A stretch of 64,000 bases of DNA from Pseudomonas alcaligenes (GTDB lineage: Bacteria > Pseudomonadota > Gammaproteobacteria > Pseudomonadales > Pseudomonadaceae). How positions within the stretch are numbered: the stretch's first letter is position 1; each line of letters starts with the position of its first letter. Location of the stretch: the NCBI RefSeq assembly GCF_014490745.1, contig NZ_LZEU01000001.1, forward strand, positions 124,001 through 188,000. The letters run 5' to 3'. Shown here one piece after another: positions 8,283 through 17,905 of the stretch. The translations under genes and the position numbers were made by a program. The notes under the pieces were generated by a model. The model was not told where the DNA came from. It saw nothing but the letters and a program-made list of their open reading frames with translations, and made no database searches.

Positions 8283-8299
8283 CTGGCACCGGACTTGCA
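8283..8299 (+). promoter_or_regulatory. Sigma-54 (-24/-12) promoter
   Basis: CTGGCACCGGACTTGCA fits the RpoN consensus YTGGCACGRNNNTTGCW at 16 of 17 positions, with invariant GG (8285-8286) and GC (8297-8298) at the correct spacing. Transcription would begin near 8310, placing the riboswitch (8388) in the leader. Sigma-54 control in pseudomonads commonly means nitrogen (NtrC) or substrate-activator regulation. I see no clear NtrC pair upstream in 8146-8282; that stretch holds only G+C-rich inverted repeats after the peptidase gene. Confidence 0.75.
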
Positions 8300-8387
8300 A
8301 AATCCCCCTCGAACGGGATGAGTCACCCGCGCCGGCAGCAGTCGGCTGGCGCTCATGACGCTTGGCACATTGGAGCTGCACCAGAGG

Positions 8388-8503
8388 CGAACTAGGGTTC
8401 CGGTCTACAGGAGTAGACGCTGGTCCGAGAGTTTTCCGGCCCTAAGGATCAGGGCTACACGGCGGGAGAAAAGCCCGGGAGACGTGACGTCATCCCGTGC
8501 CCG
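8388..8503 (+). promoter_or_regulatory. Guanidine-I (ykkC) riboswitch
   Basis: Conserved ykkC blocks appear in order and at normal spacing: ACTAGGGTTCCG (8391-8402), CTGGTCCGAGAG (8420-8431), and ACACGGCGGGAGAAAAGCCC followed by GGGAGA (8457-8482). Variable hairpins lie between them (GTCTAC/GTAGAC at 8403-8418; GCCCTAAGGATCAGGGC at 8439-8455). ykkC subtype 1 binds guanidinium and turns genes on; other subtypes bind ppGpp, PRPP or (d)ADP. The NitT/TauT-type binding protein immediately downstream is a classic subtype 1 partner. CGGGA at 8476-8480 in the aptamer can pair with TCCCG at 8493-8497, a possible expression switch ahead of the TAGGAG ribosome site (8516-8521). Confidence 0.9.
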
Positions 8504-8528
8504 AATTCCAACGTGTAGGAGCAATGCC

Positions 8529-9533
8529 ATGACCCTGCTGTCCCTGCGTTCGCTGCGCAAGACCCTGCTCTGCGCCAGTCTCGCCACCGTTGCCGGTGTG
8601 CTGCCGTTTACCGCCCAGGCCATCGAGAAGATGAAGATCGGCACCGTTGTCTGGGCCGGTTACGCACCCTTCTACGTCGCCGACGAACTCGACCTGTACA
8701 AGGCCCACAACCTCAAGGTCGAGCTGCAGTTCTTCAACGATCCGGCGCTGATTCCCTCGGCCATGGTCGGCAGCGCCCTCGACGGCGGCATGCTCACCTA
8801 CGACCAGGTGGTCGGCGGTGCAGCCAAGGGCCTGAACCACAAGGTGGTGATGCCGATCGACTTCTCCAACGGCGGTGACGCCATTGTTGCCGACAAGTCG
8901 ATCACCTCGGTGGCCGACTTCAAGGGCAAGAAGGTCGGCTTCAACCCGCTGTCGCCGTCCGACTTCCTGCTCGCCTACGCGCTGAAGAGCCACGGCCTGA
9001 CGGACAAGGACATCAGCCCGGTGAACATGACTCCCGAGGGCATCCCCGGCGCCATGGCCAGCGGCAGCCTGCCGGTCGGCGTGACCTACGAGCCCAACGT
9101 GTCGCAGATCCTCGGCATGCCCGGCGACAAGTTCCACGTGGTGTATTCCTCCAAGGACGCCCCGGGCCTGATCACCGACGTGCTGGTGTTCGACGACAAG
9201 GTGATCGCCAAGCGCCCGGCTGCGATCAAGGCGCTGATCCAGGGCTACCTGGATGGCCTGGCCTACATGCAGAGCCACCCGGACGAGGCGGCCAAGATCA
9301 TCGGCAAGGTGCTTGGCGTCAGCGCCGAGGAAGCCAAGGCGCAGATGAGCGGCGTGTACAACATCCCGCTGGCCGAGATGGGCAAGAACTTCACCCAGTC
9401 CGACGCCACCAGCTCGTTCTTCGGCAGCGGCGCGGTGATCGGCCAGCTGCTCAAGGACAACGGCCAGATCCCGGCCATTCCCGACTTCGCCAGCACCTTC
9501 GACGCCCAGTTCGTCGAGACCCTGAGCAAGTAA
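8529..9533 (+). CDS. NitT/TauT-type ABC transporter substrate-binding protein (riboswitch-controlled)
   Basis: 334 residues, Sec signal peptide ending near FTAQA. Mature protein is a two-lobed periplasmic binding protein of the nitrate/sulfonate/NMT1 class: IGTVVWAGYAPFYVADELD at the start, the LTYDQVV loop, KGKKVGFNPLSPSDFL hinge region, and VTYEPN. It lies directly under the guanidine-I riboswitch with a TAGGAG ribosome site 7 bp from ATG. Its permease and ATPase genes are not adjacent but close the same operon (16099-17783), with the enzymes in between. Likely ligand: guanidine or a guanidino compound, inferred from the riboswitch only. A paralogue is at 33644. Confidence 0.88.
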   Translation: MTLLSLRSLRKTLLCASLATVAGVLPFTAQAIEKMKIGTVVWAGYAPFYVADELDLYKAHNLKVELQFFNDPALIPSAMVGSALDGGMLTYDQVVGGAAKGLNHKVVMPIDFSNGGDAIVADKSITSVADFKGKKVGFNPLSPSDFLLAYALKSHGLTDKDISPVNMTPEGIPGAMASGSLPVGVTYEPNVSQILGMPGDKFHVVYSSKDAPGLITDVLVFDDKVIAKRPAAIKALIQGYLDGLAYMQSHPDEAAKIIGKVLGVSAEEAKAQMSGVYNIPLAEMGKNFTQSDATSSFFGSGAVIGQLLKDNGQIPAIPDFASTFDAQFVETLSK

Positions 9534-9567
9534 AAGGCGCTACCCCGTAGGCACCCTGACTACCACT

Positions 9568-9634
9568 GTCATCCCCGCGCAGGCGGGGATCCAGCCAGGC
9601 AGCGCAATGGATTCCCGCCTGCGCGGGAGTGACG
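9568..9634. repeat. Paired dRS3-like palindromes
   Basis: GTCATCCCCGCGCAGGCGGG ...ATCCAG, then after 17 bp ATTCCCGCCTGCGCGGGAGT GAC in inverse orientation. It sits inside the riboswitch operon, between the binding protein and the desaturase, so it would be transcribed as a large hairpin. It may cap the abundant binding-protein mRNA, as REP elements do elsewhere. Confidence 0.85.
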
Positions 9635-9738
9635 AGGATTGAGGGCGGGTAGTTATCCACACCGCTCGGCGTTGCTCCAAGCCGACGAAGGTGGTTATCC
9701 AGGCCGCCCATGACTCCACCCGTAACCCGGAGGAACCC

Positions 9739-10764
9739 ATGTCCACCCAGCTCTATCGCTACGCCGACGGCAAGCTGGCCAACAGCCTGGCCCTGGCCTA
9801 CGCCTTCGGTGGCTACGCTGCCGGCTTCGCCCTGCTGTTCGCCGACAGCTGGCTGCTCAACCTGGCCGGCACCCTGCTGCTTGGCCACGCGATGATCATC
9901 GCCGCCTACCTGATTCACGAATTCGCCCACGGCACCATCTTCGCCAAGCCGCTGAACAACGAGCGCGCCGGCGAGCTGTGCAGCTGGCTGTGTGGCAGCT
10001 GCTACGCCGGCTTCCAGGACTTGCGCAAGAAGCACATGCGCCACCATGTCGACCGCGCCGACGTGATCACCTTCGACACCAAGCGCTTCCTCAACCAGCA
10101 GTGCCCCGGCTGGCTGCGCAAGCTGGTGCTGGCCGCCGAGTGGGCCTATGTGCCGGCGGTGGAGCTGATCATGCATTACTACGTGATCGTGCTGCCGTTC
10201 ATCACCCGCAACGAGAAGCACCGTGCCAACCGGCGCAAGGTGGTGCTGACCCTGCTGCTGCGCACGGCGTTGTTCGCCCTGGTCGCGGCCGTGTCGCTGA
10301 AGGCTGTGCTGCTGTACTTCGTGGCCTGGTCGATCATGCTCACCGTGCTGCGCTTCACCGATGCCTACCAGCACACCTACGACGCCTTCGCAGTGCTCGA
10401 GGACAGCGGCAAGATCCCCGACGACAAGTTGCGCGACCGCCCCTACGAGCAGATGAACACCTTCAGCAACGTGGTCTCGGTGCGCTGGCCGGTGCTCGAC
10501 CTGCTGCTGCTCAACTTCGCCTACCACAACGCCCACCACGAGAAACCGGTGGCGCCCTGGTACCGCCTGCCCAAACTGCACGCCGAGCTGTACGGCGACA
10601 GTTACGCCCAGGTGCTGCCGATGCACCTGCTGTTCAAGAGCTTCCACCAGCACCGCCTGCGCCGGGTGCTCGACGACGACTACGGGCTGGTCGAGCCGCA
10701 GGGCCCGCACCGCGCCGATGGCTTCTACGGCGCGGTTGGCGTGTCCTTTCTGACGGCGGTATGA
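9739..10764 (+). CDS. Membrane di-iron fatty-acid-desaturase/hydroxylase superfamily protein
   Basis: 341 residues, integral membrane protein with hydrophobic spans near residues 15-60 and 165-205. Three histidine clusters match the desaturase/alkane-hydroxylase superfamily: HEFAHG (about 60), KKHMRHH (about 98) and NAHHEK (about 264). A further TDAYQHTYD block contributes a His. These bind a di-iron centre used for O2-dependent hydroxylation or desaturation. The start follows GGAGG 8 bp upstream, and the stop overlaps the next gene by ATGA. The operon contains no acyl-carrier or fatty acid genes, so a non-lipid substrate such as an N-alkyl guanidine or amine is my inference. No dedicated ferredoxin or rubredoxin is in the operon; a rubredoxin is found at 43394. 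Confidence 0.82.
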   Translation: MSTQLYRYADGKLANSLALAYAFGGYAAGFALLFADSWLLNLAGTLLLGHAMIIAAYLIHEFAHGTIFAKPLNNERAGELCSWLCGSCYAGFQDLRKKHMRHHVDRADVITFDTKRFLNQQCPGWLRKLVLAAEWAYVPAVELIMHYYVIVLPFITRNEKHRANRRKVVLTLLLRTALFALVAAVSLKAVLLYFVAWSIMLTVLRFTDAYQHTYDAFAVLEDSGKIPDDKLRDRPYEQMNTFSNVVSVRWPVLDLLLLNFAYHNAHHEKPVAPWYRLPKLHAELYGDSYAQVLPMHLLFKSFHQHRLRRVLDDDYGLVEPQGPHRADGFYGAVGVSFLTAV

Positions 10765-11540
10765 CGATGATCGATTACCGCGGCAAACAGGTAGTGCTCA
10801 CCGGCGCCGCCAGCGGCATTGGCCGTGGCCTGGCGCGCGCCTTCGCCGAACAGGGCGCGCACCTGGAACTGCTCGATCGCAACGCCGAGGCCCTGGCCGC
10901 AGTGGCCGACGAACTGGCGCCGCTGACTGTGGTCAGCGCGGCCGCCGTCGACCTGGCCGACAGTGACTCCATCGCCGCCTATGCCGCCCAGCGCGGCGAG
11001 CGGCCGCTGGATGTGCTGATCAACAACGCCGGGGTCGAGTACGCCACCCCGCTGGCCGATCTCGGCGCTGCAGCCGATGCCCACTGGCAGGCGCTACTGG
11101 ATAACAACGTGGCCTCCATGCTGCGCCTGACCCGCGCCCTGCAGCACCAGCTGCGCGCCGGCAGCAGCGTGATCAACCAGGCCTCGATCTGGGGCCTGAA
11201 AGGCGTGCCGGGCTTTTCCGCCTATGTCGCCAGCAAGCACGCGGTGATCGGCCTGACCCGTTCGCTGGCCTGGGAGCTGGGGTCGCGGCGCATCCGGGTC
11301 AACGCCGTGTGTCCGGGCTGGATCGGCACCGAGGCGGCGATGCGTTCGCTGCGGGTGATGGCCGCCGCCAGCGGGCGCAGCGAGGGCGAGGAGCTGGCGC
11401 TGATCCTCGCCGCCCAGGCGGTACAGGAACTGCTGACCCCGGCCGATCTCGCCGGTACTTTCCTGTTCCTCGGCAGCGCACTGGCTGCGCCGCTGACCGG
11501 GCAGGCGCTGTCGGTCAGCCATGGAGAGGTGATGCATTGA
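10761..11540 (+). CDS. Short-chain dehydrogenase/reductase (first of two)
   Basis: 259 residues, Rossmann fold: TGAASGIG nucleotide motif (about 14-21), NNAG (about 91), catalytic Ser in INQASIWG, YxxxK in YVASKHAV, and the VNAVCPGWIGTE loop. Asp following the second strand (LLDRN) suggests NAD rather than NADP preference. ATG at 10761 overlaps the desaturase stop (ATGA); MIDYRG at 10767 is an alternative. Role inferred from position: oxidation of an alcohol, or reduction of a carbonyl, produced by the upstream di-iron enzyme. Substrate unknown. Confidence 0.85.
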   Translation: MTMIDYRGKQVVLTGAASGIGRGLARAFAEQGAHLELLDRNAEALAAVADELAPLTVVSAAAVDLADSDSIAAYAAQRGERPLDVLINNAGVEYATPLADLGAAADAHWQALLDNNVASMLRLTRALQHQLRAGSSVINQASIWGLKGVPGFSAYVASKHAVIGLTRSLAWELGSRRIRVNAVCPGWIGTEAAMRSLRVMAAASGRSEGEELALILAAQAVQELLTPADLAGTFLFLGSALAAPLTGQALSVSHGEVMH

Positions 11541-12304
11541 GTCGTGCAGGACAAGAGCGGCCATTGGCCGGACAGACCGCGCTGGTTACCGGCGCCACCC
11601 AGGGCATCGGCCGGGCCATCGCCCTGGCGCTGGCCGAGGCGGGCGCCGCGGTGTGGATCAACCATCTTGACCAGCCGCAGGCGGCCGCCGCGCTGGTGGC
11701 ACGCATCGCCGCTGCTGGCGGGCAGGCGCGCGCGGTGCAGGCCGATGTCGGCTCGCGTGGGCAGGTCGCCGACATGTTCGGCTGGGTGCTCGCCGAGGGC
11801 GACCTCGACATCCTGGTCAACAATGCCGGGATCATTCTGGAGAAGCCCTTCCTCGAGACCAGCGAGGACGACTGGGCCAAGCTGCTCGGCGTCGACCTCA
11901 CGGCGGTCTACCGCTGCTGCCGGCACGCCCTGGCGCATATGCAGTCGCGCGGCAGCGGCAGCATCGTCAACATCGCCTCGGAGCTGGGCCAGCTCGGCCG
12001 CGAACACTACGCCGCTTACTGCACGGCCAAGGCCGGAGTGATCGGCCTGACCAGGGCGCTGGCCCGCGAATTCGCCCCGGCCATCCGCATCAACGGCGTG
12101 GCGCCGGGCCCGGTGGATACGCCGATGGTTTCCGCCGACTTCATGAGCGCCGAGATGATCGCCCGCGAAACGGCGATCCCCGCCGGCCGCCTCGGTCGTC
12201 CGGAAGAGATCGCCGCCGCCGTGCTGTTCCTCGTCTCGCCCGGCGCCAGCTTCTTCCATGGGCAGATGCTCGGCGCCAATGGCGGCGCCTGGATGGGGGG
12301 CTGA
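11537..12304 (+). CDS. Short-chain dehydrogenase/reductase (second of two)
   Basis: 255 residues. TTG start at 11537 overlapping the previous stop (TTGA), supported by GGAGAGG 8 bp upstream; no ATG exists near the N-terminus. Motifs: VTGATQGIG, NNAGI, SELGQLG with the catalytic Ser, YCTAKAGV, and RINGVAPGPVDTP. It resembles FabG/glucose-dehydrogenase-like SDRs that use NAD(P)H. With the SDR before it, it forms a pair of probably sequential oxidoreductases in the riboswitch operon. The two share only family-level similarity, so they are not a recent duplication. Confidence 0.84.
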   Translation: MSRAGQERPLAGQTALVTGATQGIGRAIALALAEAGAAVWINHLDQPQAAAALVARIAAAGGQARAVQADVGSRGQVADMFGWVLAEGDLDILVNNAGIILEKPFLETSEDDWAKLLGVDLTAVYRCCRHALAHMQSRGSGSIVNIASELGQLGREHYAAYCTAKAGVIGLTRALAREFAPAIRINGVAPGPVDTPMVSADFMSAEMIARETAIPAGRLGRPEEIAAAVLFLVSPGASFFHGQMLGANGGAWMGG

Positions 12305-12305
12305 G

Positions 12306-13193
12306 ATGCGTACCCTGTTGCGACCTGAGCTGGTTCTGCTGCTCGGCGCCAGCTTCTGGGGCCTCGGCTGGCTGCCGCTGGAATACCTGGCCGGGCGCGG
12401 CCTGGCCGGCATGCCGGTGGTGCTCTACACCTACGGCCTGCTCAGCCTGCTGGCCATCCCGCTACTGTGGCGCCAGCGCGCCGCCTGGTGGCCGCAACGC
12501 CGCGCCTTGCTGGCGATCTGCGTATGCGGCGGCTGGGCCACGGCCGGGCTGGTCGGCGCGCTGTCGGAAGGCGACGTGGTGCGCGCCATGCTGCTGTTCT
12601 ACCTGGCGCCGGTGTGGGGCCTGCTCGGTGGCTGGCTGCTGCTTGGCGAGCGGCTCACCGCATTGCGCGTCGGCGCACTGCTGCTGGCCATGCTCGGCAT
12701 CGGCCTGACCCTGGGCATCAGCCCCGACACTTTCCGCCCGCTGACCCTGACCGACTGGCTGGCGCTGTCCGCCGGCCTGGCGTTCGCCCTCAACAACCTG
12801 GCTACCCGCGCCGCCGAGCGAGTGCCGCTGGCCAGCAAGGCGGTGGTGGCCTTTATCGGCAGCGCCGTGCTCGGCGGTCTGTTCTGCCTGCTGCAGGCCA
12901 CGCCGCTGCCCGCCATCGGCGCGCCGCTGTGGGGGCTGATCGCCCTGTTTGGGGTGTTCTGGCTGGTCGCCATGGGCGCCGCGCAGTACGGCTTCACCCA
13001 TGTCGAAGCCGGCCGCGCGGCGGTACTGGTGGTGGTCGAACTGCTGGTGGCGGTACTCACTGCCGCTTGGCTCGGCGAGCGCGAACTGGGCCTGCGCGAA
13101 TGGTGTGGTGGCGCCCTGGTGCTGGCCGCCGCACTGCTGGCGGCGCGGCCGACAACGGAATCTTCTGCAGTGTTATGCGAGGCCAAACCATGA
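12306..13193 (+). CDS. EamA/DMT-family transporter
   Basis: 295 residues with ten predicted membrane helices and two EamA repeats (about 10-135 and 150-285); GASFWGLGWLPLEYLAGRG is a typical first helix. DMT exporters move small metabolites or amines across the inner membrane. ykkC riboswitches are well known to control small exporters of the DMT superfamily (EmrE/SugE guanidinium exporters), although those are four-helix proteins and this one is a ten-helix relative. Export of guanidine or of a toxic intermediate is therefore plausible, but uptake cannot be excluded. The stop overlaps the creatininase-like start (ATGA). Confidence 0.84.
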   Translation: MRTLLRPELVLLLGASFWGLGWLPLEYLAGRGLAGMPVVLYTYGLLSLLAIPLLWRQRAAWWPQRRALLAICVCGGWATAGLVGALSEGDVVRAMLLFYLAPVWGLLGGWLLLGERLTALRVGALLLAMLGIGLTLGISPDTFRPLTLTDWLALSAGLAFALNNLATRAAERVPLASKAVVAFIGSAVLGGLFCLLQATPLPAIGAPLWGLIALFGVFWLVAMGAAQYGFTHVEAGRAAVLVVVELLVAVLTAAWLGERELGLREWCGGALVLAAALLAARPTTESSAVLCEAKP

Positions 13194-13954
13194 GCGTACG
13201 GATGGATCAGATCAGCTGGGTCGAGTACGAGCGCCGCGTGCGCAGCGATTCGCCCGTGGTATTCCTGCCCTGCGGCGCCACCGAGCAGCACGGCCCGCAC
13301 CTGCCGCTGGGCACCGATGCGCTGCTGGCCAGCGCGCTGTGCGAGGACGTCGCCGCGCGCGTCGGCGGCCTGGTCGCCCCGGCCCTGTCCTACGGCTACA
13401 AGTCGCAGCCCAAGTGCGGCGGCGGCAACCATTTCTGCGGCACCACCAGCCTCGACGGGCAGACCCTGATCGCCCTGGTGCGCGACGCCGTGCGCGAGTT
13501 CGCCCGCCACGGCGTGACCCGCCTGGTGCTGGTCGACGGCCACTACGAGAACCAGTGGTTCGTCACCGAAGGTATCGAGCTGGCCATGCGCGAGCTGGGT
13601 CCGACGGCGAAGCTGCAGGTGATGCGCCTGGAGCACTGGGACTTCTGCAGCGAGCAGACCCTGGCCGACGTGTTCCCCGATGGCTTCCCCGGTTTCGCTC
13701 TGGAGCACGCGGCAGTGATCGAGACCTCGCTGATGCTGCACTACCTGCCGCATCTGGTGCGCATCGACCTGATCCCCGACGAACCACCGGCCGACTTTCC
13801 GCCCTACGACATGTACCCGAGTCGCACCGAGTGGGTGCCGCCGTCCGGCGTGCTGTCCTCGGCCAAGGGCTCGACGGCGGAGAAGGGCGCGCTGATGGCC
13901 GCCGACATCGCCGGCGGCATCGCCAGTGCGGTGCGCAAGGAGTTCGCCCTGTGA
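13190..13954 (+). CDS. Creatininase-family amidohydrolase, close to true creatininase
   Basis: 254 residues. Unusually similar to Pseudomonas creatinine amidohydrolase: the stretch YGYKSQPKCGGGNHFCGTTS is nearly that of the known enzyme as I remember it. Binuclear metal ligands are conserved: Glu32, His34, Asp43 (GATEQHGPHLPLGTD), His118 and Glu120 (VDGHYEN). The gating Trp154 of the known enzyme corresponds to Trp150 (HWDF), but the second one (Trp174) is Phe169 (GFPGFALEH). Creatininase opens the cyclic guanidino compound creatinine to creatine. No creatinase or sarcosine oxidase is present, so a different lactam or guanidino substrate is possible. Start and stop overlap both neighbours by 4 bp. 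Confidence 0.88.
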   Translation: MSVRMDQISWVEYERRVRSDSPVVFLPCGATEQHGPHLPLGTDALLASALCEDVAARVGGLVAPALSYGYKSQPKCGGGNHFCGTTSLDGQTLIALVRDAVREFARHGVTRLVLVDGHYENQWFVTEGIELAMRELGPTAKLQVMRLEHWDFCSEQTLADVFPDGFPGFALEHAAVIETSLMLHYLPHLVRIDLIPDEPPADFPPYDMYPSRTEWVPPSGVLSSAKGSTAEKGALMAADIAGGIASAVRKEFAL

Positions 13955-14580
13955 GCACGGCACTGATCGTCATCGATATGCAGCGCGACTTCTGCGCGCC
14001 GGGCGGTTACGCCGACCAGGCCGGTCTGGATATCGGCCTGCTGCGCGCGCCGATCCCGGCGATCCAGGCCCTGCTTGCTGCCGCCCGCGTGCGTGGCCTG
14101 CTGGTGCTGCACACCCGCGAAGGCCATCGCCCTGATCTGTCCGACCTGCCCGAGCCCAAGCGCCTGCGCGCGGCCAATGCCGGTGCGCCCATCGGCAGCC
14201 AGGGGCCGCTGGGCAGGCTGCTGGTGCGCGGCGAATACGGCCACGATCTGATCGACGAGCTGCAGCCGTTGCCCGGCGAACCGGTGATCGATAAGCCCGG
14301 CTACAGCGCCTTCGCCGCCACCGATCTGGAGCTGCTGCTGCGCAATCGTGGCATCAGCGAGCTGATCATCACCGGCGTCACCACCGAGGTCTGCGTGCAC
14401 TCGACCCTGCGCAGCGCGGTCGACCGTGGCTACGCCTGCACCCTGGTCAGCGACGCCTGCGCCTCGGCCTACCCCGAGCTGCACGCCGCCGCCCTCGCCA
14501 TGGTCGATGTGGAAGGTGGCCTGTTCGGCCGGGTGTGCGACAGTCGGCGTCTGCTCGCCGAATGGAAGGACGCCCCATGA
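13951..14580 (+). CDS. Isochorismatase-like cysteine hydrolase, biuret/ureidoacrylate amidohydrolase type
   Basis: 209 residues, GTG start overlapping the previous stop (GTGA). Catalytic triad Asp9 (VIDMQRDF), Lys115 (IDKPGYSAF) and Cys148 (GVTTEVCVH), with the cis-peptide at GVTT. The blocks HTREGHRPDLSDLP and GPLGRLLVRGE ...DLIDEL resemble what I remember of biuret hydrolase (BiuH) and RutB-like ureido amidohydrolases more than of true isochorismatases. N-carbamoylsarcosine amidohydrolase, a creatinine-pathway enzyme, is in the same superfamily. The inferred role is release of ammonia from a ureido or carbamoyl intermediate. Confidence 0.85.
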   Translation: MSTALIVIDMQRDFCAPGGYADQAGLDIGLLRAPIPAIQALLAAARVRGLLVLHTREGHRPDLSDLPEPKRLRAANAGAPIGSQGPLGRLLVRGEYGHDLIDELQPLPGEPVIDKPGYSAFAATDLELLLRNRGISELIITGVTTEVCVHSTLRSAVDRGYACTLVSDACASAYPELHAAALAMVDVEGGLFGRVCDSRRLLAEWKDAP

Positions 14581-15353
14581 CCCAAGTGACCAAACTCTGG
14601 CCGCTGCTCACCGCCACCCACCGCTACGACAAGTCGATCTCCACCTGGCAGCGCGGCCACGGCCAGATGATCGAGGCGCCGATCCTCGCCTACCTGATCG
14701 AGACCAGGCACGGGCGCATCCTCTACGACGTTGGCTGCGACTACCAGAAGATCGCCGACCCGGCCCAGCGCGAACGCTGGTACGGCGGCTTCTCCATGGG
14801 CGCGCCGCAGATGAGCGAGGAACAGCGCCTGCCGGCGCACTTCGCCCGCCTCGGCCTGACCCCGGCGGACATCGACCTGGTGTTCCTCGGCCACCTGCAC
14901 TTCGATCATGCCGGCGGCCTGTGTGAAGTCTGCGGCGCCGAGGTGCATGTGCACGCCGCTGAGTTGGCAGCGGCCAGGGCCCAGGCCGACGACGCCTATT
15001 TCGGCGACGATTTCGCCGGCGACTACCAGTGGAAGATCCAGACCGACGAGTACGAGCTGGTGCCCGGCGTGCGCGCGATCAACACCCCCGGCCACACCGC
15101 CGGGCACATGTCGCTGCTGATCGAGCTGCCCCAGGGCAAGCCGGTGATCCTCGCCGGCGACGCCGCCGACCTGACGGAAAACCTCGAGCAGGAAATCGCC
15201 CCCGGCACCCTCTGGCAGGAACGCGAGGACATGGCCATCGCCAGCATCCGCAAGCTCAAGGTGCTGGCTGCGGAAACCGGCGGCGAGCTGTGGCCCAACC
15301 ACGACATGGCCTTCTACCGAGGGCTGCGGCAGTTCCCGGAGTTCCATTCATGA
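14577..15353 (+). CDS. Metallo-beta-lactamase-fold hydrolase, AHL-lactonase-like
   Basis: 258 residues. Binuclear zinc motif His106-x-His108-x-Asp110-His111 (HLHFDHAGG), the third-ligand His in NTPGHTAGH, the bridging Asp in LAGDAADL, and a distal His in WPNHDMA. The domain layout (long N-terminal strand region, YDVGCDYQ) is like AttM/AiiA N-acyl homoserine lactonases. In a catabolic operon it more likely opens a lactone or cyclic ester or amide made upstream than quenches quorum signals. ATG overlaps the previous stop by 4 bp. Confidence 0.83.
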   Translation: MTQVTKLWPLLTATHRYDKSISTWQRGHGQMIEAPILAYLIETRHGRILYDVGCDYQKIADPAQRERWYGGFSMGAPQMSEEQRLPAHFARLGLTPADIDLVFLGHLHFDHAGGLCEVCGAEVHVHAAELAAARAQADDAYFGDDFAGDYQWKIQTDEYELVPGVRAINTPGHTAGHMSLLIELPQGKPVILAGDAADLTENLEQEIAPGTLWQEREDMAIASIRKLKVLAAETGGELWPNHDMAFYRGLRQFPEFHS

Positions 15354-16102
15354 AACCCATTCCCGACGCCTACCTCGGCGTGTGGCAGCGCACTTTGCTG
15401 ACCACCACCAGTGGCGTGCACGACACTGCCACCCAGGTCTATTGGCTGCAGACCGCCAGCCTGTTCGCCGACCTGCGCATTCCCCAACCGGCGCCCGCCA
15501 GCGCGGCTGAGCTGGCGACCCAGGCCGGTTTCGCCGGCGTTACCGAGATCAGCGGCGAGCTGTGTCAATGGCACCGCGCCATCGACTTCCAGCCGCCCAG
15601 CGGACGCGACGACATCGGCCGCATGCGCTTCGAGCGCCCCGACTACCTGCTTGAAGACGGCCTCGACGGCAGCTATCACGAAGTCTGGGAGCGCCTGCCG
15701 GAATCCCTCGGGCGCAACTGGGGCGTGTGGCTGGCGGCGTTCGACGGGCGCCAGGGCTGCCTGCTGCTGGCCGGCGACTACTTCCTGTTCGCCGCCTGCC
15801 GGGGCGAACAGCTGCCGCCCGCCGAGTCGCTCGGCGTGCTGCTGGAGCAGGGCCATGACGGCCGCCTGCTGGATTTCGAACTGTCCTTCGGCCGCCACCA
15901 GGGCGGCGCGCAACCCTGGCGCATCGAGCTGTCGACCCTGCCCGAGCGCCGCGGCCAGGCGCTGCTGCCGGCCACCATCGATCCCGATCAGCCCGACCAG
16001 TTGCTCACCCCGGCCGTGCTCGCCGGCCTCGGCGCCACGCCGCCGCTGGGTGGCTGGCAGGTACGCGAGCGACCGCTGTTTCCCGAGGAGGTAAGCCCAT
16101 GA
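15350..16102 (+). CDS. HRI1-like protein of unknown function
   Basis: 250 residues, no signal peptide or membrane segment. The opening AYLGVWQRTLLTTTSGVHDT, followed by VYWLQTASLFADLRIP, resembles the HRI1 family (a lipocalin-like double-barrel fold known from yeast), an assignment from memory with moderate certainty. The C-terminal half has WGVWLAAFDGRQGCLLLAGD and YFLFA, compatible with a second barrel. No catalytic residues are known for the family; a ligand-binding or isomerase role would fit the fold. It is coupled by ATGA overlaps to the lactonase-like gene and to the ABC permease, so it is a true member of the operon. Confidence 0.7.
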   Translation: MKPIPDAYLGVWQRTLLTTTSGVHDTATQVYWLQTASLFADLRIPQPAPASAAELATQAGFAGVTEISGELCQWHRAIDFQPPSGRDDIGRMRFERPDYLLEDGLDGSYHEVWERLPESLGRNWGVWLAAFDGRQGCLLLAGDYFLFAACRGEQLPPAESLGVLLEQGHDGRLLDFELSFGRHQGGAQPWRIELSTLPERRGQALLPATIDPDQPDQLLTPAVLAGLGATPPLGGWQVRERPLFPEEVSP

Positions 16103-16935
16103 CCGCCCATCAACCTTTGCCCACCCGTGAGGCCGGCGTGCCGCCGGCGCGCCCGAGCTGGTGGGTGATTCGCGGCGAGCTGCCGCGCGGCGCCGTCTGG
16201 TGCCTGGCCGGCGCCGGCCTGCTGTTGCCGCTGTTGCTGTGGTGGCTGGCCAGTTATCTCGGCCTGAGCAACCCGATGTTCATGCCCGGCCCGGATGCGG
16301 TGCTGGCGCGGGTCGGTCGCTGGTGGAGCGAGGAGGGCCTGCTCGCCGATATCGGCATCAGCGTGTACCGGGTCATGGCCGGCTTCGCCGCCTCGGCGCT
16401 GATCGCCCTGCCGCTGGGCCTGTACATCGGCACCTACCGCCCGGTACAGGCGTTCCTCGAACCACTCACCGACTTCATCCGCTACATGCCGGCGGTGGCC
16501 TTCATCCCGCTGATCATGCTGTGGGTCGGCATCGACGAAGGCTCCAAGGTGCTGATCATCTTTATCGGCACCTTCTTCCAGATGGTGCTGATGGTCGCCG
16601 AGGACGTGCGCCGCGTGCCCATGGCGCAGATCGAGGCGGCGCAGACCATGGGCGCCTCGCGCAGCGAGATCGTCAAGCTGGTGATCCTGCCGTCGGCGCG
16701 CCCGGCACTGCTCGACACCCTGCGCATTACCTGCGGCTGGGCCTGGACCTACCTGGTGGTGGCCGAACTGGTCGCGGCCAACTCCGGCCTTGGCTACGCC
16801 ATCCTCAAGGCGCAGCGCTACATGCACACCGACAAGATATTCGCCGGGATCATCCTGATCGGCATCATCGGCCTGCTCACCGACCAGGCGTTCCGCTGGC
16901 TCGGCCGCGTGGCCTTCCCCTGGATGAAGAGGTAA
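16099..16935 (+). CDS. ABC transporter permease, NitT/TauT type (SsuC/TauC-like)
   Basis: 278 residues, six predicted helices. The EAA loop reads EAAQTMGASRSEIVKLVILP, and the hallmark GWAWTYLVVAELVAANSGLG matches taurine/nitrate/sulfonate permeases. It starts with the ATGA overlap after the HRI1-like gene and is followed at 5 bp by its ATPase. With the binding protein at 8529 it completes an importer whose three genes bracket the enzymes of the operon. Confidence 0.9.
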   Translation: MTAHQPLPTREAGVPPARPSWWVIRGELPRGAVWCLAGAGLLLPLLLWWLASYLGLSNPMFMPGPDAVLARVGRWWSEEGLLADIGISVYRVMAGFAASALIALPLGLYIGTYRPVQAFLEPLTDFIRYMPAVAFIPLIMLWVGIDEGSKVLIIFIGTFFQMVLMVAEDVRRVPMAQIEAAQTMGASRSEIVKLVILPSARPALLDTLRITCGWAWTYLVVAELVAANSGLGYAILKAQRYMHTDKIFAGIILIGIIGLLTDQAFRWLGRVAFPWMKR

Positions 16936-16940
16936 GCGCC

Positions 16941-17783
16941 ATGACTGACAGCAAGATCCAGATTCGCCACGTCGACAAGCTGTTCAAGAGCAAGGGCCGA
17001 GAGGTGCAAGCGCTGCAGGATGTCAGCCTGGATATCCGTGGCAACGAATTCATCACCTTCGTCGGCGCTTCCGGCTGCGGCAAGTCGACCCTGCTGCGTA
17101 GCATCGGCGGCCTGGAGCAGCACAGCGCCGGCTCGATCCAGGTCGACGGCGCGCCGATCCACGGCCCCGGCATCGACCGCGCCATGGTGTTCCAGCACTA
17201 CAGCCTGTACCCCTGGCTGACGGTGATGGAGAACATCAAGTTCTGCCGCCAGCTCAAGGTGGTCAGCGACACCGTGCGCAACGATGCCGATGTGGAAGTC
17301 GCCAGCGGCCGCGCCGATGCACTGCTGACCCTGATGGGCCTGTCGGCCTTCGCCAGGGCCTACCCCAACCAGCTCTCCGGCGGCATGCAGCAGCGCGTGG
17401 CGATTGCCCGCGCGCTGATGCCCAAGCCGCAGATCCTGCTGATGGACGAGCCCTTCGGCGCCCTGGATGCGCAGACCCGCGAGGTGATGCACGACCTGAT
17501 CCGCCATGTGCACCGGCTGGAGAAGAGCACCATCCTGTTCGTCACCCACGACGTCGAGGAAGCCATCTACCTCGGCGGCCGCGTGGTGCTGATGGCGCCG
17601 CGTCCGGGGCGCATCGACACCATCTACGAGGTGCCGCTGCCGGCCGAGCGCAATCAGGACATGAAGCTGGCGCCGGAGTTTCTCGCCCTGAAGAAGGAGA
17701 TCCTCGGCCGCATCCGCGAGACCTCGGGGATGAACACCGACCTGGAGCTGCTGGAACAGCTGACCCGCACCGTGCCGGCCTGA
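16941..17783 (+). CDS. ABC transporter ATP-binding protein, NitT/TauT type (SsuB/TauB-like)
   Basis: 280 residues. Walker A GASGCGKST (about 43-51), Q-loop MVFQHYSLYPWLTVMENI, signature LSGGMQQRV, Walker [14 protein letters not shown]-loop VTHDVEEAIYL. Asp-Glu-Pro-Phe-Gly-Ala-Leu-Asp is the typical sequence of the nitrate/sulfonate/taurine branch. It is the last gene of the riboswitch operon; a paired palindrome follows at 17817. Confidence 0.92.
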   Translation: MTDSKIQIRHVDKLFKSKGREVQALQDVSLDIRGNEFITFVGASGCGKSTLLRSIGGLEQHSAGSIQVDGAPIHGPGIDRAMVFQHYSLYPWLTVMENIKFCRQLKVVSDTVRNDADVEVASGRADALLTLMGLSAFARAYPNQLSGGMQQRVAIARALMPKPQILLMDEPFGALDAQTREVMHDLIRHVHRLEKSTILFVTHDVEEAIYLGGRVVLMAPRPGRIDTIYEVPLPAERNQDMKLAPEFLALKKEILGRIRETSGMNTDLELLEQLTRTVPA

Positions 17784-17816
17784 GCGGCTGCTCCGGTACT
17801 GCTGACTTTCAGGCCC

Positions 17817-17905
17817 GTCATCCCCGCGCAGGCGGGGATCCAGGGTGCTTGACGGGAATGCGCCGGGTTGCCGGCCACTGGGTTCCCGCCTGCGCGGGAA
17901 CGACG
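17817..17905. repeat. Paired dRS3-like palindromes
   Basis: GTCATCCCCGCGCAGGCGGG near the 3' end of the riboswitch operon and GGTTCCCGCCTGCGCGGGAA CGAC in inverse orientation 40 bp later. The transcribed region can fold into a long hairpin. It is the second such element in this operon and may mark its 3' end; no U-rich terminator is visible before the next gene. Confidence 0.85.

Follow-up and report, generated by a model that had tools for sequence, protein, structure and literature searches.

An operon under guanidine riboswitch control in Pseudomonas alcaligenes pairs a membrane di-iron protein with an MgdL homologue and is predicted to release guanidine from larger guanidino compounds

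The window analysed here, a stretch of 64,000 nt from Pseudomonas alcaligenes (assembly GCF_014490745.1, contig NZ_LZEU01000001.1, positions 124,001 to 188,000 of the forward strand), raises the question of what is achieved by an operon that stands behind a guanidine riboswitch and encodes none of the enzymes known to act on guanidine. Eleven co-directional genes, all on the + strand between positions 8529 and 17783 of the window, lie downstream of a Guanidine-I aptamer and of a sigma-54 element, and profile searches over all eleven detected no guanidine carboxylase (Gca), Cgd protein or allophanate hydrolase (AtzF). The initial annotation had placed this operon outside the known guanidine pathways and had proposed that guanidine and an aldehyde are set free oxidatively from an N-substituted guanidine. 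As detailed below, the second proposal is now backed by sequence comparisons and the first is not supported by the rest of the genome and by the relatives of the operon, which is probably a peripheral catabolic route that would release guanidine from larger guanidino compounds for guanidine carboxylase.

Gene 9 (HYP9; 15350..16102) has no match in Pfam, NCBIfam or PDB sequences, an alignment of its homologues gave only chance matches against PDB, and a plasmid search was also negative; homologues were found in 20 of 390 genomes of the order. Comparison with MgdL-type proteins revealed 34% identity by BLAST (E 2e-20) and, by hhalign profile comparison with the MgdL family, a probability of 99.9 (E 3.5e-36). 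According to excerpts of PMC12508155, MgdL is an N-(hydroxymethyl)guanidine lyase that forms a beta barrel and has Asp49 and Arg51 as catalytic residues, and mgdH and mgdL of Vreelandella boliviensis are arranged in the same way as the genes found here at locus L081 (genome G330), where the order is Gca, 2-oxoglutarate (2OG) dioxygenase (family assigned by Pfam), MgdL and AtzF. The proteins of L081 and L082, which provide the MgdL numbering and stand in for V. boliviensis MgdL itself, have the published catalytic residues at D49 and R51, which correspond in the alignment to D41 and R43 of HYP9. All 17 aligned family members contain the D-x-R motif, and D41 and R43 are invariant in 47 operon rows. 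In addition, the AlphaFold model of HYP9 is a beta barrel (pLDDT 94), as described for MgdL, and in a tree a branch (SH-aLRT 80) sets the operon-type lyases apart, with L081 and L082 as their neighbours. Gene 9 is an MgdL homologue in which the catalytic Asp/Arg pair is conserved, and lyase activity is predicted for its product.

The surroundings of the operon were compared in a set of 80 loci, corresponding to the best 80 of 408 relatives of gene 2 (DES; 9739..10764) obtained by scanning genome contigs with a DES alignment; gene-content counts refer to the 61 loci with enough flanking sequence (hereafter evaluable). An MgdH-type 2OG-Fe(II) dioxygenase adjoins other MgdL genes in 15 of 17 loci and is found in none of the 80 operon loci. 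A search for MgdH in the present genome was negative as well, with a query that matched five of the seven genomes searched, including its own source. DES belongs to the membrane di-iron FA_desaturase superfamily, as indicated by a Pfam match and by the HxxxH, HxxHH and HxxHH boxes of the FA_desaturase/AlkB type (HEFAH, HMRHH and HNAHH), and a PDB sequence search with it gave no match. Of the 61 evaluable loci, 60 contain both DES and HYP9, an association more constant than that of the two short-chain dehydrogenases (SDR1 and SDR2), the creatininase-family protein (CRN), the cysteine hydrolase (CHY), the EamA transporter or the lactonase-like metallo-hydrolase (MBL). Because of this pairing and of the absence of MgdH, the membrane di-iron protein is likely a non-homologous replacement of the MgdH dioxygenase, and we propose it as a putative N-alkylguanidine hydroxylase. 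Two minimal operons were also observed, one consisting of the ABC (ATP-binding cassette) substrate-binding protein (SBP), DES, MBL, HYP9, permease and ATPase genes (L154) and the other of DES, EamA, MBL and HYP9 downstream of Gca and AtzF (L145).

According to their titles, the 80 loci are mostly from Pseudomonas, Stutzerimonas, Halopseudomonas and Betaproteobacteria. All eleven genes occur on one strand in 32 evaluable loci and the remaining ones hold subsets, with 35 loci lacking none of SDR1, SDR2, EamA, CRN, CHY, MBL and HYP9. By decreasing frequency, the evaluable loci contain SBP and HYP9 (60 each), CRN (57), SDR2 (56), CHY (55), SDR1 (53), ATPase (52), permease and EamA (51 each), MBL (44), Gca (24) and MgdH (none). 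Clustering of neighbouring genes over the 80 loci revealed, among the best 25 clusters, no further gene that recurs in the operon across lineages. Using a model made in this analysis, the aptamer was detected upstream of DES in 77 loci; in two of the others (L137 and L160) the contig starts less than 0.5 kb ahead of DES. The association of genes and aptamer exceeds chance. In a locus titled Tepidiphilus (L117, 8500-8960), the operon and a sigma-54-like element are kept and the leader has no aptamer.

The lack of known guanidine enzymes is a property of the operon and does not extend to the genome. At 1.433-1.445 Mb of the contig designated C1, the same genome encodes a urea/guanidine carboxylase (1878 bits against a cutoff of 1304), two UAAP/Cgd-type proteins, an allophanate hydrolase and an SBP of the TIGR03427 family, each above cutoff, and the reading of an organism devoid of a known guanidine pathway was set aside. 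TIGR02712 alone cannot separate urea from guanidine carboxylase, and the enzyme is read here as a guanidine carboxylase because two more Guanidine-I aptamers (C1:1.443-1.445 Mb) adjoin the carboxylase genes. With this pathway elsewhere in the genome, the operon itself need not degrade guanidine. Linkage is also seen in the relatives, since Gca and/or AtzF lie within the fetched stretch of 25 of the 80 operon loci. A second Guanidine-I aptamer (L148:15412-15554 and L155:15392-15534) was observed in two of these stretches, downstream of the DES operon and ahead of Cgd-Gca genes. Among the 390 genomes of the order, a DES relative was found in 26 and a carboxylase in 116, the urea/guanidine carboxylase being present in 18 of the 26 DES genomes and in 98 of the 364 others (p 1.9e-5, uncorrected for kinship and with the 18 of 26 tallied by hand).

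The aptamer that heads the operon (8381..8483, + strand) was identified by an Rfam covariance search as RF00442, Guanidine-I (ykkC subtype 1), with 79.1 bits against a gathering threshold of 63 and an E-value of 2e-12 for the whole window, in agreement with the subtype-1-like aptamer first annotated in this region. Between 7900 and 9000, the only other Rfam match up to an E-value of 5 reached 15.8 bits, far under its family cutoff. Invariant columns are common to the operon aptamer and to the aptamers of Gca operons. Upstream, a -24/-12 element for sigma-54 (RpoN), TGGCAC-N5-TTGCA, occurs at 8284..8299 on the + strand as the sole match in the window, where 0.18 would be expected; at least one match was obtained in 17 of 100 shuffles, and the single-genome match by itself is not strong. 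Strong evidence comes from comparative recurrence: of the 76 relatives that could be evaluated for this element, 75 have TGGCAN-N5-NTGC no more than 200 nt upstream of the aptamer (strict form in 24, TGGCAC form in 52), whereas it occurs in 7 of 3591 control windows that avoid the site (63 of 4000 in an earlier control that did not exclude the site itself). The RpoN promoter inferred earlier from one sequence is thereby upheld.

A strand of the aptamer 3' arm, CTACACG (8455..8461), can pair with CGTGTAG at 8512-8518, which overlaps the ribosome-binding site (RBS) and forms part of CGTGTAGGAG (8512..8521), a segment combining the complement of the aptamer arm with the Shine-Dalgarno of gene 1. 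The minimum free energy fold of the leader is weak when taken alone (z-score -1.46 relative to shuffles). Across lineages both strands have changed, with CTACACG-CGTGTAG in many gammaproteobacteria and GGCTCC-GGAGCC in betaproteobacteria. Two of the 77 leaders have no recognisable Shine-Dalgarno and were left out of the pairing score; among the 75 scored, at least six pairs were found in 60, at least five in 68 and fewer than five in 7, with pairing down to 4 in five Pseudomonas leaders. In 16 of the 75, by hand count, more than one tenth of the shuffles pair equally well. This comparative pairing, rather than the weak single fold, suggests a translational ON switch in which the aptamer 3' arm would act as an anti-RBS strand. 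In this the leader would differ from Guanidine-I riboswitches in general, which excerpts of a 2025 review describe as usually transcriptional (PMC12186494).

The gene families named by the initial annotation (FA_desaturase, two SDRs, EamA, creatininase, an isochorismatase-family hydrolase nearest BiuH and a lactonase-like MBL) were all recovered, and the adjustments concern the substrates of the biuretase-like and creatininase-like enzymes. CHY (gene 7; 13951..14580, GTG start) is closest to BiuH but scores 277 bits with NF050097, under the cutoff of 370, and was rejected as a true biuret hydrolase. D9, K115 and C148, which we take to be the Asp-Lys-Cys triad of isochorismatase-like proteins, are conserved throughout (60 of 60 aligned rows). 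The P. mendocina plasmid pMET-2 (CP098607) encodes a cysteine hydrolase to which CHY is 65% identical; this plasmid protein is also under the BiuH cutoff (271 bits) and is adjoined by ABC genes with 64%, 58% and 31% identity to the operon permease, ATPase and SBP, respectively. Part of PMC9800807 describes BB_00025 on pMET-2 as an assayed guanylurea hydrolase, and we take the pMET-2 protein to be this enzyme, as plasmid, family and a neighbouring deaminase agree; the locus tags differ. Given the 65% identity and the related ABC genes, the substrate of CHY is probably an acylguanidine and not a ureido product.

CRN (gene 6; 13190..13954) passes the equivalog cutoff of TIGR04448 (377 bits against 235). 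Relative to P. putida creatininase 1J2T, H36, D45, H120, E122 and H178 are found in 66 of 66 copies and E34 in 65, these six being presumably the metal-site/catalytic positions of creatininase; W154 and E177 are aligned as well. At two positions that we assume to belong to the substrate loop, W174 is replaced by F in 63 copies and Y in 3, and D175 by A in all 66 (F169 and A170 in the present protein; wild-type letters from 1J2T). Since both are changed in every copy, CRN as a plain creatininase was set aside and plain creatinine is not assured as its substrate. The third hydrolase, MBL (gene 8; 14577..15353), matches profiles of AiiA/4-pyridoxolactonase-like metallo-hydrolases with a lactonase-like fold and is missing in some copies.

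The remaining genes complete an ABC importer and add the SDRs and a transporter. Gene 1 (8529..9533) encodes an NMT1/SsuA-like SBP, distant from the SBP family of carboxylase operons (TIGR03427, 100 bits against a cutoff of 334), and genes 10 (16099..16935) and 11 (16941..17783) encode the permease and the ATPase. SDR1 (gene 3; 10761..11540) and SDR2 (gene 4; 11537..12304, TTG start) were recognised by family profiles, as was the EamA-family transporter (gene 5; 12306..13193). With the gene starts chosen in this analysis, 7 of the 10 junctions are 4 bp overlaps, which agrees with the eleven-gene operon first described, and the others are a gap of 205 bp between SBP and DES, 1 bp between SDR2 and EamA and 5 bp between permease and ATPase. 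REP-like (repetitive extragenic palindromic) repeats of the CCCCGCGCAGGCGGGGATCC type were seen by eye in the gap between genes 1 and 2 (about 9568-9640) and just past gene 11 (17816-17905).

Taken as a pathway, transcription would start under nitrogen limitation via sigma-54, and guanidine bound to the aptamer would free the RBS. The importer would take up N-substituted guanidines, among which cyclic forms may be opened by CRN and acylguanidines cleaved by CHY; DES would then hydroxylate the carbon adjacent to the guanidino nitrogen, HYP9, as an MgdL-like lyase, would split the resulting hemiaminal into guanidine and an aldehyde, the SDRs may handle the aldehyde or an alcohol, and guanidine would pass to Gca. 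We infer all these reactions and substrates from gene content, conservation, linkage to Gca and AtzF, MgdL homology including the catalytic residues, and MgdH absence. A creatinine-type compound, which fits both CRN and CHY, is the lead candidate substrate. The fit is poorer for methylguanidine alone, since the operon coexists with a 56% MgdH relative in genome G094; in G360 only a 39% MgdH relative with an in-frame stop was found. On a broader scale, the chances seem about even that oxidative N-dealkylation of guanidino compounds has passed to a second oxygenase family, unrelated to the first, with a membrane di-iron hydroxylase and an MgdL-type lyase forming a funnel operon, widespread in Pseudomonas, Stutzerimonas and Betaproteobacteria, that leads from a natural, possibly creatinine-type compound to free guanidine.

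The same genes might be ordered into a linear oxidation of the ring, in which DES would hydroxylate a creatinine-like ring carbon, an SDR would yield a dione, CRN would open the ring and CHY would give guanidine or methylguanidine and oxalate, HYP9 being auxiliary. This would mirror the abiotic chain from creatinine through creatol to methylguanidine. Such a route would employ SDR, CRN and CHY jointly, in line with the 35 evaluable loci that miss none of the seven accessory genes, and it would suit both the likeness of CHY to an acylguanidine hydrolase and the altered substrate loop of CRN; creatol and methylguanidine do arise abiotically from creatinine, according to part of PMC3775425. We regard it as rather unlikely, as DES and HYP9 persist without SDR, CRN and CHY in the minimal operons L154 and L145, which makes hydroxylase plus lyase the most constant step.

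Release of guanidine by these two enzymes has also to be weighed against detoxification, whereby DES would oxidise guanidine itself, EamA would export the products and the hydrolases would repair by-products. The presence of an EamA gene is compatible with this, many guanidine-riboswitch genes being exporters (excerpts of PMC12186494), but the operon contains a complete ABC importer, its sigma-54 element points to nitrogen scavenging and Gca and/or AtzF are nearby in 25 of the 80 loci, so that detoxification appears very improbable. Hardly credible is an aptamer of ykkC subtype 2 sensing guanosine tetraphosphate (ppGpp), phosphoribosyl pyrophosphate (PRPP) or a nucleotide, in an operon unrelated to guanidine: EamA genes are among the subtype 2 targets listed in part of PMC7266159, but RF00442 is well above threshold and no other family covers the aptamer up to an E-value of 5, for which reason a ppGpp/PRPP aptamer was set aside, and the columns shared with Gca-operon aptamers and the Gca/AtzF linkage argue for guanidine.

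The natural source of guanidine is described as a major gap in excerpts of the 2025 review (PMC12186494). The aptamer accompanies the present operon in 77 of the 80 loci, most of them gamma- or betaproteobacterial. The operon predicts a definite enzymatic source and, if this is true, would be one natural source of the guanidine sensed by riboswitches. The enzymes put forward are a membrane di-iron protein as N-dealkylase, a homologue of MgdL whose partner is new, creatininases of a subfamily in which the substrate loop is altered, and the chromosomal guanylurea-hydrolase-like CHY, which may bear on metformin breakdown. When guanidine riboswitches were combined with desaturase, creatininase, isochorismatase or SDR in literature searches, no report of this operon was seen among the matches listed, which is not proof of absence.

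Other gene runs combine related elements. The single run at L078 (4290-18721) would make up another guanidino route: it encodes an ABC importer together with a creatininase-family protein that is distantly related (26%), proteins of glutamine-synthetase-like and TIM-barrel type, a relative of DES, and Cgd-Gca-AtzF. In L088 (2740-10688), an MgdH-MgdL pair adjoins an ABC importer and creatininase-family and glutamine-synthetase-like genes. In L064-L068 and L071, a DES relative is accompanied by ABC transporter genes of its own, and the fetched stretch contains no Gca; in L064 the DES relative lies beside a xylose-isomerase-like TIM barrel. Each of these genomes has two urea/guanidine carboxylase genes outside that stretch.

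When compared to known systems, CRN has the fold family and aligned residues of P. putida creatininase 1J2T, from which it differs at W174 and D175. DES shares the membrane di-iron superfamily with GntB, the guanitoxin L-arginine hydroxylase, which acts on a guanidino compound according to its family description (NF041365), yet DES scores only 20.5 bits with that family against a cutoff of 380. In P. mendocina MET, the locus on pMET-2 that encodes the guanylurea hydrolase (PMC9800807, in part; CP098607) resembles the operon in hydrolase (65%), permease (64%) and ATPase (58%), whereas no oxygenase, lyase, creatininase or Guanidine-I aptamer was found in the 16.6 kb fetched and its SBP is only 31% identical. 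With the Gca-CgdAB-AtzF operon, control by guanidine-I is shared, but the operon described here would make guanidine instead of degrading it. A further parallel is MgdH-MgdL of V. boliviensis (excerpts of PMC12508155), a system for the demethylation of methylguanidine, which has in common guanidine-I control, an oxygenase acting with an MgdL-type hemiaminal lyase and linkage to the carboxylase; here, a membrane di-iron protein replaces the 2OG-Fe(II) dioxygenase, a creatininase, a cysteine hydrolase, SDRs, MBL and EamA are present in addition, and the substrate is probably another one.

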